From Anaerolineae bacterium (GTDB lineage: Bacteria; Chloroflexota; Anaerolineae; 4572-78; J111): a stretch of 9,324 nucleotides of DNA. Position 1 is the stretch's first letter. Each line of letters opens with the position of its first letter. Positions 1,313 to 7,392 of the stretch are shown here, piece by piece. The notes beneath the pieces were generated by a model. The model did not search any database and had not been told where the DNA came from. It saw only the letters and a program-made list of their open reading frames with translations. The DNA lies in assembly GCA_020433835.1 (NCBI GenBank), contig JAGRBY010000260.1, forward strand, positions 1 through 9,324. Reading direction: 5' to 3'. Made by a program: the position numbers and the translations under genes.

Positions 1313-1879
1313 ATGCGAAAATTAAAACTTCAAGTTCAAATGACGGTTGACGGATACGTTGCCGGCCCCAACGGCGAAATGGATTGGGTGATGTGGAACT
1401 GGGATGACGCCCTCAAAACCTACGTCAAAGAATTAACAGAACCCGTTGACTGTATCGTTCTGGGCCGCAACTTGGCCGAAGGGTTCATTCCCCACTGGGC
1501 TGGCGTAGCTGCCGATCCGGCCAACCCGGACGTTGCAGCAGGCAAGAAATTTACGGACACTCCCAAAGTTGTTTTTACCAAGACGCTCGATGCGTCACAA
1601 TGGGATAACACCGTTTTAGCCAAAGGCGACCTGGTTGACGAAATCACGAAACTTAAAAACCAGGAGGGTCAAGACATCATCGTTTACGGCGGCGCGACCT
1701 TTGTAGCCAGCCTCATCAAACATGGGCTGATTGACGAGTATCACTTATTCGTTAATCCCGCGGCTATTGGCGAGGGTATGGCGATCTTTAACGAACTTGA
1801 TAGCAAACAAAATCTGACCCTTGTAAAGGCTACAGTATTTGAATGCGGGATTGTTGTCCTGAATTACGAACCGAAATAG
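1313..1879 (+). CDS. Dihydrofolate reductase family protein (RibD C-terminal domain)
   Basis: A 188-residue cytosolic protein with the single-domain RibD_C/DHFR-like fold. The N-terminal strand and loop read SVDGY-type as TVDGYVAGPNGEMDW (residues 11-25), which in the family shapes the NADPH/substrate pocket. GRNLAEGF (51-58), KVVFTKTL (85-92) and YGGATFVASLIKHGLIDEY (125-143) are the remaining family blocks; the GGA turn contacts the cofactor phosphate in related reductases. These stand-alone proteins are usually annotated as dihydrofolate reductase or deaminase/reductase, but they are not proven to reduce dihydrofolate, and the true substrate is unknown. Full length. It follows the AraC-type gene after 82 nt on the same strand, which makes it a candidate target of that regulator. 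Confidence 0.88.
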   Translation: MRKLKLQVQMTVDGYVAGPNGEMDWVMWNWDDALKTYVKELTEPVDCIVLGRNLAEGFIPHWAGVAADPANPDVAAGKKFTDTPKVVFTKTLDASQWDNTVLAKGDLVDEITKLKNQEGQDIIVYGGATFVASLIKHGLIDEYHLFVNPAAIGEGMAIFNELDSKQNLTLVKATVFECGIVVLNYEPK

Positions 1880-1960
1880 ATCGAACCGGCAATTACCATG
1901 CTAATAATAGATTGGTTCAGTTTCCATTATAGGTCGATCAAGCTCTTTAAATGGGCAAAC

Positions 1961-2401
1961 TATTTGGACAGTACAACGACCATGGTACAAAAACTGGACC
2001 AAGCTTAGGCCATGGCGAGGATCATGGTGATAAAAGCTTCTTCCGTTGAGATTTATTTAGGGGACATTCGTGTTTTCATGCAGGGAACGTTGTGTTTACA
2101 TTAGGGAATCTTGCCGTTGTGAAAGTAAATCTTGCCGTTGCATTGGTTCATGCTTAATTTTTGCTTGTCCATGGTACTTTTTGTTTGGGTAACGTTGTGT
2201 TTACGTTAGGGAATCTTGCCGTTGTGAAAGTAAATCTTGCCGTTGCGTTGGTACACGCTTAATTTTTACTTGTACATTCTTAATTTTTGCTTGTCCATGG
2301 TACTTTTGCAACGGTACATCCAAGTTTTGCAATGGTATATCCAGGTTTTGCAACGGTACATCGGTGTTTTCGGGCGGTACACAGCGTGTAATGGAGTGAT
2401 A
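1961..2401. repeat. 21-nt periodic repeat array with a duplicated higher-order block
   Basis: From 2066 to 2380 the sequence divides without gaps into fifteen 21-nt units. Most begin AT or AC, have a T-rich centre and end in GGTAC, GTCC, GTAA or GGGA. Units at 2108 and 2213 are identical; those at 2087 and 2192 differ at one base. Three units near the right end (2297, 2318, 2339) share TTTTGCAA followed by GGTA. The block starting at 2087 (five units) recurs at 2192 as six units, because the CTTAATTTTT unit is present twice (2255 and 2276). The in-phase word ATGGT also occurs at 1982 and 2024, so the period extends weakly to about 1961; a weak unit at 2381-2401 closes it. There are no spacers, so this is not CRISPR. 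It may be a minisatellite or an array of protein-binding sites. Confidence 0.85.
2087..2317. repeat. Higher-order tandem duplication inside the 21-nt array
   Basis: Copy 1 is 2087-2191 and copy 2 is 2192-2317. Each contains in order ACGTTGTGTTTAC, ATCTTGCCGTTGTGAAAGTA, ATCTTGCCGTTGC, CTTAATTTTT and ATGGTACTTTT. Copy 2 carries one extra 21-nt unit, and the final unit keeps only its first 11 bases in common. Length change by a whole unit points to slippage or unequal recombination between units. Confidence 0.85.
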
Positions 2402-2445
2402 AGCGACTCTTAAGCACTATACTTTCTTGAAAATAGGTTTAGGTG

Positions 2446-2492
2446 GACAAATCGCTGATTTGTCACGGATGGAACAAGTCGGCGACTTGTTC
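2446..2492. repeat. Pair of adjacent tight palindromes
   Basis: GACAAATC (2446-2453) pairs with GATTTGTC (2457-2464) around GCT. Seven bases on, GAACAAGTC (2472-2480) pairs with GACTTGTTC (2484-2492) around GGC. Both are perfect and share the ACAA/TTGT arms with a three-base GC-containing loop. No T-run follows, so they are not classical terminators. They look like a dispersed bacterial palindromic element (REP-like). Confidence 0.65.
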
Positions 2493-2592
2493 TACTGTTT
2501 TCATTGCCGGTGTCGTCTCAACCGAGACTGTTGGCCTCCCGTGAAAGTAAGTAATTTTCATAACTAACTTATGAGTTTGAGACCAGGCTGAA

Positions 2593-2665
2593 TAGACAGG
2601 ATTTACAGGATTTCCAAGATTAAAATAAGTAAAAATCATATTAATCCTGCCGAAGGTTCTGTCTA
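2593..2665. repeat. Imperfect inverted repeat with tandem ACAGGATTT
   Basis: ACAGGATTT occurs twice in tandem (2596-2604, 2605-2613). TAGACAG (2593-2599) is inverted as CTGTCTA (2659-2665), and CAGGATT is inverted as AATCCTG (2643-2649). I recall very similar AGGATTTACAGGATT-type words as dispersed intergenic repeats in several phyla, so this is probably a genomic repeat and not a local regulatory site. The rest of 2493-2734 shows no gene I can support. Confidence 0.6.
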
Positions 2666-2734
2666 AACTAATGTAACAACTTAGAGTTGAAAACTACTTA
2701 CAGACCCGGAGAGTCAAAGTTTACCAACGCGGAT

Positions 2735-2752
2735 GACAAAGCGAGCTTTGTC
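2735..2752. repeat. Tight palindrome upstream of the HTH_42 gene
   Basis: GACAAAGC (2735-2742) pairs with GCTTTGTC (2745-2752) around GA. Its arms resemble those of the palindromes at 2446-2492, so it is probably another copy of the same element type. It lies 26 nt before the AGGAG ribosome binding site (2779-2783) of the next gene, so it would be in or near its leader. Confidence 0.55.
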
Positions 2753-2794
2753 GCTCCAACCCATTTTCATTAACCATCAGGAGCAATTCCACTC

Positions 2795-3874
2795 ATGACG
2801 GATTTCAATATTGCCGATTTGCGGCTGCATAACCAGGCTATTGCGCCATCGCACTTGGCGACAGCGGGTGATGTCGTCAGAAGATTGGGGGCGGTTCAGG
2901 CTCAGGATTATCTGGGGACGCTGTGGGCGCTGGGGCTGCGCATGCCAAAAGCGGTCGAAACCGATATTGAGCAGGCCATTGCCAACCGCGAGATCGTACG
3001 CACCTGGCCGATGCGCGGCACGCTCCATTTTGTCGCGCCGGAAGACGTACGCTGGATGCTGGCTCTGCTAACGCCCCGGATTATTGCCAGGGCGGCCCGG
3101 CGGTACAAGCAACTTGAGCTGGATGAAGCCACCTTCGCCCACAGTGAAACCGTATTCGCCCAAGCGCTGCAAGGCGGCAACTGCCTCACCCGGCCCGAAA
3201 TAATGACGGTGTTAGAGGAAACCGGTATTTCTACCCAAGGCCAGCGTGGTTATCATCTGCTGTGGCATGCAGCTCAAAACGGCTTGATCTGCTTTGGCCC
3301 TCGGCATGGAAAACAGGATACGTTTGTGTGGCTTGATGATTGGCTGCCCGCCGGTAAGACTCTCAACCGGGACGAGTCGCTGGCCGAGTTGGCCCGCCGC
3401 TATTTTACCGGTCATGATCCGGCGACTCTACAGGATTTTATATGGTGGTCGGGGTTGTTAACAGCCGATGCCCGCGCTGCCGTCGAGATGGTGGCAGCGG
3501 AGTTAGAAGAAGTTGTTATCGACGGCCAAACCTACTGGTTGGCTTCACCTGATTCTGTTCCGCAAGCTCCATCGCCCACGGTGTATCTCTTACCTGGATT
3601 TGATGAGTACCTGTTGGGCTATCGAGATCGCAGCGCCGTACTCGATCCGGCTCACAACGACAAAATCGTGCCCGGCGGCAACGGGATGTTCAAATCAACC
3701 ATCGTTATCGATGGTCAGGTGGTCGGCACCTGGAAACGGACATTGAAGAAAACGACGGTGACCATCGAACTCCAGCCCTTTAATCCCCTAAGCGATGTCG
3801 AGAGCGAGGCCGTCGCAACGGCGGCGGAAACGTATGGAGCATTTCTCGAACGAACGGTGAATTTTACCAACTGA
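2795..3874 (+). CDS. Winged-helix HTH_42 protein (AlkZ/YcaQ superfamily)
   Basis: A 359-residue cytosolic protein of the HTH_42 family (winged helix DNA-binding domain, PF06224). The N-terminal block RLGAVQAQDYLGTLWALGLR (30-49) carries Q35-A-Q37, matching the glutamine-x-glutamine motif that is catalytic in AlkZ, a DNA glycosylase that unhooks alkylated bases and interstrand crosslinks. Other family blocks are RTWPMRGTLHFV (69-80), a winged-helix segment near 130-170, and LLPGFDEYLLGYRDRS (265-280). Length is typical. The start has AGGAG at 2779-2783, 11 nt before the ATG, which is a little far. It is a solitary plus-strand gene whose last 11 nt overlap the 3' end of the convergent methyltransferase gene. 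Family membership is firm; glycosylase activity is inferred only from the QxQ motif, because many members are uncharacterised. Confidence 0.87.
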   Translation: MTDFNIADLRLHNQAIAPSHLATAGDVVRRLGAVQAQDYLGTLWALGLRMPKAVETDIEQAIANREIVRTWPMRGTLHFVAPEDVRWMLALLTPRIIARAARRYKQLELDEATFAHSETVFAQALQGGNCLTRPEIMTVLEETGISTQGQRGYHLLWHAAQNGLICFGPRHGKQDTFVWLDDWLPAGKTLNRDESLAELARRYFTGHDPATLQDFIWWSGLLTADARAAVEMVAAELEEVVIDGQTYWLASPDSVPQAPSPTVYLLPGFDEYLLGYRDRSAVLDPAHNDKIVPGGNGMFKSTIVIDGQVVGTWKRTLKKTTVTIELQPFNPLSDVESEAVATAAETYGAFLERTVNFTN

Positions 3875-5881: not shown

Positions 5882-5915
5882 AGTGACCTCGTACTTAACT
5901 GATAGGCTAAGGCTG

Positions 5916-5961
5916 AGGCGAAGGCTAAGAAGTCGTTGTTTTGAATTTTGTTCCTTCGCCT
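5916..5961. repeat. Inverted repeat between the AKR and MDR genes
   Basis: AGGCGAAGG (5916-5924) pairs perfectly with CCTTCGCCT (5953-5961) across a 28-nt loop. It lies in the 93-nt gap between the aldo/keto reductase stop (5975) and the oxidoreductase start (5881) on the minus strand. With no T-run after it, termination is not clear; it may reduce read-through or stabilise the upstream message. The neighbouring GGCTAAGGCTGAGGC words look repetitive. Confidence 0.55.
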
Positions 5962-5974
5962 TAAACCTGCTTTT

Positions 5975-7000
5975 TTACATCCTGGTTTTGCTCTGGTCAA
6001 TCAAATTGAAAGTATTCCCATAGATCAGCTTGCGAACGCCATCGCTGGCCAGAAAATCGTGGGGAAAACCCAATTGGGGCTGGCTCAGGGCGCTGAGTTT
6101 GTTGCGCTGCTCGTCGGTTAGGTGTACATCTAAACAGCCCAGATTTTCCTGAAACTGATCGAGCCGACGACTGCCGATAATCGGAATAATATTACCCGGT
6201 TGGGAGCGCAGCCAGGCCAAAGCTACCTGAGCCGGAGTGTGGCCTATCTCTTCCGCAATCTGAATTACGCCGTTGACAAGCGCGAGCTTTTGTTCATCGG
6301 CTTGGTTGCCAAAACGACCTCCTTCACTGCGGTTAGCATTATATTTGCCGCTGAGCAGACCGCCGCCCAACGGCGACCAGCAGGTTACGGCCATTTCAAA
6401 AGCTTGGGCCATCGGCAGCAGGTCGCGCTCGACATCGCGCTGAACAAGATTGTATTCTACTTGTAAGCCAACAAACGGCGTCCAGCCTCGTAATGTGGCC
6501 AGCGTATTGGCCTGCGCTATGATCCAGGCCGGTGTGTCAGAAACGCCAACGTACAAAATTTTTCCGGCCCGCACCAGATCATCAAGCCCCCGCATAATTT
6601 CTTCAACCGGCGTGAGAAAATCCCAGGCGTGAAGCCAATAGAGATCGATGTACTCGACATTTAGCTGTTTTAGGCTCGCTTCGACAGATTGGACCATACT
6701 TTTGCGGTGATTACCTCCCCCGTTGGGGTCATCGGCCCGTTGGGTGAGGGTGTACTTGGTGGCAATGACGAAACGGTCACGATCCTGCTGGACAAAGTCG
6801 CCAATAAGTCGCTCGCTCATGCCTTTGGCATAGTAGTTGGCCGTATCAATGAAATTGCCGCCAGCTTCAACAAACGCATCGAATATTTTTCGGCTTTCCT
6901 CTGCCGAAGCGCCAAAGCGTCGATCATCACCAAAGATCATAGCCCCCAGGCACAGTTCTGAGACGCGTAATCCAGTTTTACCCAAAAGTTTATAGCGCAT
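5975..7000 (-). CDS. Aldo/keto reductase
   Basis: A 341-residue cytosolic (beta/alpha)8 NADPH-dependent oxidoreductase that would reduce carbonyls to alcohols. The catalytic tetrad is intact: D52 and Y57 in FIDTANYYAKGMSE, K82 in VIATKY and H124 in YWLHAWD. The start MRYKLLGKTGLRVSELCLGAM and the late cofactor-phosphate motif IIPIIGSRR (271-279) are family standards. A loop rich in D, G and N (about 90-98) precedes the conserved RKSMVQSVEASLKQL. Length matches the YajO/YghZ-like subgroup, though I cannot assign a specific member. AAAGGA at 7015-7010 lies 9 nt from the ATG. It follows the ABM-family gene by 47 nt on the same strand and precedes the MDR oxidoreductase by 93 nt, so it is probably transcribed from the promoter upstream of the ABM gene. 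Physiological substrate unknown. Confidence 0.92.
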   Translation of the reverse strand: MRYKLLGKTGLRVSELCLGAMIFGDDRRFGASAEESRKIFDAFVEAGGNFIDTANYYAKGMSERLIGDFVQQDRDRFVIATKYTLTQRADDPNGGGNHRKSMVQSVEASLKQLNVEYIDLYWLHAWDFLTPVEEIMRGLDDLVRAGKILYVGVSDTPAWIIAQANTLATLRGWTPFVGLQVEYNLVQRDVERDLLPMAQAFEMAVTCWSPLGGGLLSGKYNANRSEGGRFGNQADEQKLALVNGVIQIAEEIGHTPAQVALAWLRSQPGNIIPIIGSRRLDQFQENLGCLDVHLTDEQRNKLSALSQPQLGFPHDFLASDGVRKLIYGNTFNLIDQSKTRM

Positions 7001-7047
7001 AATTTTTGTTCCTTTACGATGTCAAACCACTTAATGCCTTAGAAATA

Positions 7048-7392
7048 TTAAAGCCCAACACGCTTATACGTTCCCAAGTCGGCTTTGATGCCAAGTCGGA
7101 CGAATAATTCTTGAGAGTTGAAATTCATTGCTTGATGCATGGCCTTGACAGCGGCTTTGGCCGGCTCGATTGATTCGATGCTGTCCCATTCAACCATGGT
7201 CATAATATGGGATTCACCCGGCTCCGATGCCTGTTCCAGCACAAAATCCTGGAGAAAACCGGATTGCTGCTTGAGCAGTTGATGGGTAGCCTGCACCTTT
7301 TCGATGAATTCTTCACGGGCATGGTCTGGAACAACGAACTTATCGACGCGATAGATGTGTTCAGATTGATTAGAGAACGTATCTTTTTGCAT
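7048..7392 (-). CDS. Antibiotic biosynthesis monooxygenase (ABM) family protein
   Basis: A 114-residue single-domain dimeric alpha/beta ferredoxin-like protein of the ABM superfamily. IYRVDKFVVPDHAREEFIEKV (13-33) is the first strand and helix, GFLQDFVLEQ (45-54) the second strand, and HIMTMVEWDSIESIEPAKAAV (62-82) the third strand and following helix, in the usual order. ABM-family proteins include cofactor-free quinol monooxygenases (YgiN-type) and heme-degrading enzymes; no diagnostic ligand is present, so only the family is assigned. The ATG at 7392 is chosen because GGAGGG (7402-7397) lies 4 nt upstream. A GTG in frame at 7404 overlaps that Shine-Dalgarno sequence and is unlikely to be used. 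It is the first gene of the five-gene minus-strand run and lies just downstream of a strong palindrome at 7422-7444, probably its operator. Confidence 0.8.
   Translation of the reverse strand: MQKDTFSNQSEHIYRVDKFVVPDHAREEFIEKVQATHQLLKQQSGFLQDFVLEQASEPGESHIMTMVEWDSIESIEPAKAAVKAMHQAMNFNSQELFVRLGIKADLGTYKRVGL

Follow-up and report, generated by a model that had tools for sequence, protein, structure and literature searches.

A strict 21-base array in an Anaerolineae genome: a dispersed, helically phased repeat and probable multi-site protein-binding region from a mobile element that is dead or non-autonomous

Is a strictly periodic tandem array between two bacterial genes a simple minisatellite, or is it a set of protein-binding sites belonging to something that has moved around the genome? 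This question was raised by a stretch of 9,324 nucleotides from an Anaerolineae bacterium (hereafter the window), in which an earlier note had described 21-nt units and proposed a multi-site binding array or the relic of a transposon end. Here we show that the strict 21-base array is genuine, and that it is a dispersed, ordered and helically phased repeat. It probably belongs to a mobile element, non-autonomous or dead, in which it would serve as a multi-site region for protein binding.

The array lies in an intergenic stretch of about 915 bp between a RibD/DHFR-like gene and an AlkZ-like DNA glycosylase gene (Table 1); other genes of the window carry AraC-type, methyltransferase, dehydrogenase, aldo/keto reductase, glyoxalase and DinB domains. 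Repeats that also occur in a sister genome (G001) are stacked along this stretch: an inverted-repeat element, the array, a palindromic repeat, an element with 24-nt ends and a second palindromic repeat. A search with the AlkZ-like protein against genome contigs gave 47 loci. The closest one, L001 (Anaerolineae bacterium HKST-UBA12, genome G001), is syntenic with the window, its AlkZ-like protein is 89% identical, and the aligned DNA blocks are 85-94% identical; it is also the only one of the 47 loci with a close homologue of the left gene (the homologue at L009 is 22% identical). In L001, the AlkZ-like gene begins 4 bp after the stop codon of the left gene, or 13 bp from where the left-gene match ends, and the whole block of about 915 bp, array included, is absent, which, with no outgroup to the pair, fits a gain in the window as well as a loss in L001. 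Since the other repeats of the block are missing there too, the ends of the element, and with them a target-site duplication, cannot be read from L001. A second strain with the array at this locus was not found among the 47 AlkZ-like loci. The aldo/keto reductase gene of the window (5975-7000, in the region 5914-7061) is likewise without an aligned counterpart in L001.

Table 1 Features of the array locus and its surroundings in the window
Feature	Position	Strand	Evidence or remark
Left flanking gene, RibD C-terminal/DHFR-like	1313..1879	+	PF01872, E 3.8e-29
Inverted-repeat (MITE-like) element of ~97 bp left of the array (head), arms AGATTGGTTCAGTTT / AAACTGGACCAAGCT	1909..2005	.	Arm pattern, copies
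Spacer of 18 bp from head to array, same length at C332	2006..2023	.	Head register -115 from first array unit at both loci
Array, 17 contiguous in-phase 21-nt units, phase start 2024	2024..2380	+	TRF, autocorrelation, unit profile
First five-unit block of the 105-nt higher-order repeat	2087..2191	+	
Five-unit block again, as six units, with one extra CTTAATTTTT-type unit	2192..2317	+	
Final three units, GGTACATCCAAGTTTTGCAAT type	2318..2380	+	
Palindromic REP-like repeats	~2425-2540, ~2699-2771		Each matched repeatedly in the sister genome
Second small element, 24-nt inverted ends (79%)	2547-2701		Copies in the sister genome: 95% (L050), 87% (L052), 74% (L059)
Right flanking gene, AlkZ-like DNA glycosylase	2795..3874	+	PF06224, E 2.2e-77

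Autocorrelation confirmed the 21-nt periodicity: over positions 1961-2401, the value at lag 21 was 0.479, compared with 0.269 ± 0.023 in 500 first-order Markov resamplings (z 9.3), and further peaks appeared at lag 105 (z 10.7) and lag 126 (z 7.9). TRF agreed, reporting periods of 21 nt and of 105 nt (1.8 copies, 93%). The units are contiguous and keep one phase without an indel, as had been described, but there are 17 of them rather than fifteen (the first three with weak unit-profile scores). They occupy only part of the region first assigned to the array, of which positions 1961-2005 are the right part of the separate inverted-repeat element of about 97 bp. The word ATGGT indeed recurs in a single phase at 1982, 2024, 2171 and 2297, and the recurrence of a five-unit block as six units was verified: the units at 2108 and 2213 are identical, and those at 2087 and 2192 match at 20 of 21 positions. 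The array DNA appears non-coding.

We compared 51 units from the window array and the three related arrays described below (17, 17, 10 and 7 units at the four loci). Each unit has a boundary box at positions 17-21/1-2 (GGTMC-AT like) and a T-rich box at positions 9-11: position 18 is G in 50/51 units, position 1 is A in 48/51, position 2 is T or C in 51/51, and T is dominant at positions 9-11, with an exact TTT in 30/51. This bears out the T-rich centre and the GGTAC/AT-like boundary noticed before, and from these conserved positions the two boxes lie about one helical turn apart. The fixed 21-nt unit also supports the earlier proposal of a multi-site array in a single helical phase. The right edge, on the other hand, need not be the terminus of the TG type that had been suggested: TGTGTACC is an ordinary unit-boundary box, and two of the sister arrays extend beyond the corresponding point.

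The array is not confined to the window. Searching related genomes, we found three further arrays in G001, all at other loci (C332, C899 and C504). The window array matched that of C332 at 80% over 318 bp without gaps, that of C504 at 79% over 104 bp, and that of C899 in two overlapping stretches at 72% and 75%. This occurrence at several loci disfavours a purely local minisatellite. Although their loci differ, the C332 and C899 arrays share 96% identity over 131 bp; therefore, copying or conversion was recent. All four arrays have the same order and polarity of unit types, read in one phase (C504, whose contig starts inside the array, from the middle onward), and all finish in a variable count of ATGGCACTTTTGCAACGGTCC-like units. 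An extra terminal block, ATGCTCCAAAATAGGGGGTAC followed by GTCTTAATTTTTCT, is present only in C332 and C504 and is unrecognisable in the final units of the window array (8/21 matches), and the 105-nt duplication is present in the window and in C332 and was not seen in C899.

The surroundings of the sister arrays differ. Convergent genes flank the C899 array, one Ham1-like and one without a Pfam match. The C332 array is flanked by divergent genes; one encodes a 257-aa protein, and the product of the other has lectin-like and TSP3 domains and is at least 2183 aa long. The C504 array adjoins a paralogue of the 257-aa gene. Both copies of the 257-aa protein were without a Pfam match over the cut-off, and among 12 genomes of the family the gene occurs in G001 only. 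C332 and C504 do not represent independent insertions, as both belong to a duplicated segment that includes a paralogous gene. The stretch from the 21-nt array to the 257-aa gene contains a second tandem repeat of about three units of about 23 nt (L093 337-416 and the matching part of L091); it ends in TTTGACA downstream of C504 or TTTTGACA downstream of C332, which by eye, and by eye only, resembles an IS21 end. The left flank of C899 (L092 1766-1891), which has no head element, gave an in-phase 21-nt profile signal (P 0.002-0.003) that may be a more decayed extension of the array, and another in-phase signal to the right of C899 (P 0.004-0.007) falls partly inside a palindromic repeat.

Array DNA was detected in 1/12 genomes of the family, 1/25 of the order and 1/400 of the phylum, each time in G001; the phylum search, in whose results shown at most two candidates per genome were scored, was of low sensitivity and missed C504 in G001. 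The unit pattern with one mismatch allowed was found in 2/396 genomes of the class, G001 (8 matches) and G254 (2 matches). Phage and plasmid records had no match to window positions 1880-2794, plasmid records none to the C504 or C332 arrays, and viral_contigs 0 matches for two patterns. Thus, the family, order, class and phylum samples searched held no convincing relatives beyond the window and one sister genome.

Directly left of the window array is the element that we call its head. The inverted-looking motif noted earlier at 1983-1999 exists, but it is the right arm ('CTGGACC') of this separate 97-bp element and not part of the array. The head is short, has terminal inverted repeats and is multi-copy, as is expected of a MITE; the array itself does not have this set of properties. 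The 15-nt arm of the head (AGATTGGTCCAGTTT), allowing at most one mismatch, had 105 matches in G001, compared with 2 for the reversed control, 4 in G002 and 0 in both G010 and G012; among the G001 matches listed, 12 start in the first 100 bp of a contig. In 20 G001 copies and a C508 copy, all selected for intact arms, both arms lie within 85-98 bp, and no clear target duplication was visible by eye in the 21 copies.

The window head and the segment left of the C332 array are identical at 55/97 positions, ungapped and in the same register, whereas random positions gave an identity of 0.25 ± 0.045 (maximum 0.40), and just left of the head arm identity between the two loci drops to background (9/32). 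From this identical register and the background identity beyond the arm, we conclude that the head and the array, separated by the 18-bp spacer, occur as a combination at both loci. A head at C899 is at most weak (36/97 vs C332 and 31/97 vs the window). The in-phase signal left of the window and C332 arrays is the head element itself, and the relatedness of head and array-unit sequences was not above that in 200 shuffles.

The fixed unit length can be compared with the expected number of indels. All 51 units are 21 nt when read in phase, and a minimum spanning tree connecting them needs 173 substitutions. As controls we used the local non-coding indel rate (11 gaps per 109 substitutions, window vs L001 intergenic DNA) and 16 alignments of the other repeats of the block with their G001 copies (13 gaps per 187 substitutions, or 10 per 187 when adjusted for 4 of the 13 gaps being one 8-nt gap common to four copies). 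These rates predict 17.5, 12.0 or 9.3 indels, compared with 0 in register (Poisson P 3e-8, 6e-6 and 1e-4), where the array copies are non-independent and the units are read in a fixed phase. The spanning tree may overstate the changes up to twofold, and with a strict bound of 87 substitutions the expectation falls to 8.8, 6.0 or 4.7 (P 2e-4, 2e-3 and 1e-2). Three off-register array alignments contain 1-nt gaps. The head is also ungapped relative to C332, with 42 mismatches and 2.9-4.2 indels expected, so the absence of indels is not peculiar to the array, and the argument from unit length is weakened both by this and by the strict bound.

The arrays at several loci, their common unit order, the head register at two loci and the lack of in-register indels support what we tentatively regard as the best explanation: positions 1909-2380 of the window would be one copy of a low-copy, lineage-limited, non-coding dispersed repeat, non-autonomous or a relic, with a phased multi-site predicted binding array. 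The points against it are that the ORFs scanned near the arrays gave no transposase or Rep over a Pfam cut-off, that neither a convincing second end nor a target duplication was found, that C899 has no clear head, and that the array is known from two genomes only. Like MITEs and REP-RAYT-type repeats, the array is short, non-coding, dispersed and intergenic, its own enzyme is absent, and it directly follows a 97-bp inverted-repeat element. Unlike MITEs, it has no clear terminal inverted repeats, and the sister genome holds three related arrays as against 105 arm matches of the 97-bp element.

The main rival to this explanation is a neutral minisatellite spread by recombination. Such a repeat would have grown by slippage and unequal crossing-over and spread via segmental duplication and inter-repeat recombination, its fixed length reflecting recent amplification and homogenisation and not selection. 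Bacterial minisatellites and VNTRs resemble the array in their head-to-tail units and in changing length by whole units; accordingly, the unit number differs by locus (17, 17, 10 and 7) and a five-unit block is duplicated in the window. The lack of a linked transposase or binder near the arrays, the position of C332 and C504 inside one duplicated segment and the gapless head also suit a minisatellite. However, the array departs from minisatellites and VNTRs in that several loci carry it and its unit types keep a fixed order, identical at four loci; in addition, 0 in-register indels contrast with the 9-17 expected (5-9 with the strict bound), and the register of head, spacer and array was retained at two loci. 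We consider a neutral minisatellite a possible but doubtful origin.

The proposal of a transposon end was sustained in part. The dispersal, the absence of the array from this locus in the sister, the unit order, the fixed head distance at two loci and the analogy with tandem IS21 units speak for it; against it stand the lack of a linked transposase over the cut-off, of a second end and of a target duplication, and a similarity to IS21 that stays within the range of shuffles. In line with the note, no transposase over the Pfam cut-off was found among the scanned ORFs of the window. The suggested association of array copies with istA/istB or rve-type transposases was not found among the ORFs scanned near the four arrays, which also gave no other transposase or Rep over the Pfam cut-off. 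The nearest transposase candidate, about 1.3 kb from the C504 array (L093 1493-2113; Y1_Tnp E 0.13, below the cut-off), is possibly a REP-associated Y1-type transposase, and the palindrome CCCACGCTCTGCGTGGG lies directly upstream of it. G001 had 7 matches to PF01695, 6 of them over the cut-off; the best one is an IstB fragment at a contig start, and the others may be other ATPases, since this family also matches in 13/14 control genomes. None of these matches is on an array contig; short contigs may hide full copies. PF00665 had one match in G001, below the cut-off. Downstream of the array, the best candidate for the opposite (inverted) arm matched at 10/15 positions, and a candidate inverted pair of 19 nt at 2151-2169 / 2398-2416 had 74% identity.

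For a direct comparison with IS21 we collected 23 IstB loci (E up to 1e-40) from 17/150 genomes of the same class. Right-side TRF arrays of 23-24 nt, with units such as GGTTCCCTTTTCGACTGTCAAAC, were present at 8/23 loci, two of the eight being near-identical ends in one genome; the longest had 4.7 copies. Both sides were available for 20/23 loci, 15/20 had an inverted match, and 29 of the resulting 30 ends were compared (one was dropped because of Ns). The mean local score to these 29 ends was reached by 46, 20, 12 and 15 of 60 shuffles for the window, C332, C899 and C504 arrays, respectively, and the best single score by 8, 43, 4 and 5 of 60. In the best alignment of C504, 54 nt run end to end with one IS21 terminus, a score matched by 5/60 shuffles. 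A profile of 24 hand-picked IS21 units (TTTTCG subgroup) gave at best 11.9 (C504), compared with a shuffle mean of 5.9 (sd 3.1, maximum 13.2; 40 shuffles per array).

The resemblance is thus one of architecture. IS21 ends (L1/L2 and R1/R2, bound by IstA) are tandem direct repeats of bipartite sites, and an excerpt of one study describes two conserved regions about 10 bp apart at a 23-bp spacing (PMC10122671). The array is analogous to such ends in that both consist of tandem units with two conserved regions. It differs in its spacing of 21 instead of 23-24, in its 17 units instead of about 2-5, and in having no linked istA/istB, inverted second end or demonstrated 5-bp target duplication, nor a similarity above shuffles. 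The direct comparisons, made with IS21 and with a Rep_3 iteron, do not place the array among the IS21, Mu, Tn7 or iteron systems.

An iteron- or partition-like array, in which the units would be sites for a Rep_3-type initiator or a centromere-binding protein left by integrated plasmids, also fits the architecture. Iterons are direct repeats about two helical turns apart, as are the units of the array, and they are usually far less diverse than these units. The only exact match in viral_contigs to a relaxed two-box, two-unit pattern was a 21-bp repeat present in three copies, which lies upstream of a Rep_3 gene (L168 10650-10720, in IMGVR_UViG_3300021431_000005), with a phage-type integrase gene nearby. 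Like the array, this iteron has 21-bp direct repeats in one helical phase, with an A/T tract and a GGTAC-like box whose spacing follows from the pattern used in the search. Outside the ten positions which that pattern prescribes, however, it matched the array units no better than shuffled sequences (the best unit gave P 0.79 and the mean P 0.41). The period of the array fits a definition by near-identical 17-22-bp direct repeats, and its units are diverse; moreover, no Rep domain was found among the ORFs scanned around the four arrays, and the array, unlike Rep_3 iterons, is present at several loci. We conclude that the L168 match shows that such a spacing exists before a Rep gene, not that the window array is an iteron, and we regard an iteron origin as unlikely.

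A bolder reading would be a new kind of non-autonomous element, in which an inverted-repeat head at a fixed helical register is combined with a long one-ended array of transposase or initiator sites; it would be moved in trans as a unit, the 21-bp phase being selected while the sequence drifts. The titles and abstract openings retrieved in a literature search, mostly outside subscription journals, contained nothing on such an array. We rate this reading as quite improbable.

Very improbable is a chromosomal regulatory or nucleoid-binding array of the host, that is, phased T-tracts bending the DNA or an operator array. T-boxes and boundary boxes do alternate each half unit at a fixed unit length, but the neighbouring genes differ among the window, C899 and the C332/C504 pair (the pair having one paralogous gene in common), their orientation is inconsistent (codirectional, convergent and divergent), the array is missing at the orthologous sister site, and promoter-like sequences were not in excess (2 found vs 2.3 in shuffles). 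The relic of a gene for a heptapeptide repeat (21 nt being seven codons) is scarcely credible: frame-breaking indels are absent, peptides such as VHGTFAT and VPLQNLD recur in two frames and the short C504 array can be read through its 56 codons in one of six frames, but in the window, C332 and C899 arrays every one of the six frames is interrupted by stops (3-9 per frame in the window and C332), one stop is common to four loci, and substitutions show no codon-position bias (P 0.26, 0.07 and 0.17). A structured RNA was also rejected, with no Rfam match in the window and a fold of 1961-2401 at z -0.20 vs 100 shuffles.

Returning to the dispersed repeat with a predicted binding array, we propose the following layout: the inverted-repeat head of 97 bp would be followed, after a spacer of 18 bp, by 21-bp units arranged in a polarised array. 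Each unit would be bipartite, with its two boxes lying about one helical turn from each other and facing the same side of the DNA. The putative binder may be a protein with two DNA-binding heads, either tandem HTH or double winged helix domains like those of transposases and Rep initiators, and neighbouring units may be bound cooperatively. The array would most likely have served a mobile element, by now non-autonomous or dead, as its multi-site end or its recognition region. Its phase would have been maintained while the element was used and copied around the genome, and unit number would change through unequal exchange of whole units.

At present the array is a local curiosity, as no convincing relative is known from the samples searched beyond the window and one sister genome. 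Nevertheless, it illustrates that a tandem array resembling a simple minisatellite in one sequence can turn out to have related copies elsewhere, at several loci and in a fixed internal order. Should the phase constraint prove real, the array would be a natural case of many bipartite sites on one face of the DNA, and its binder could be isolated directly.
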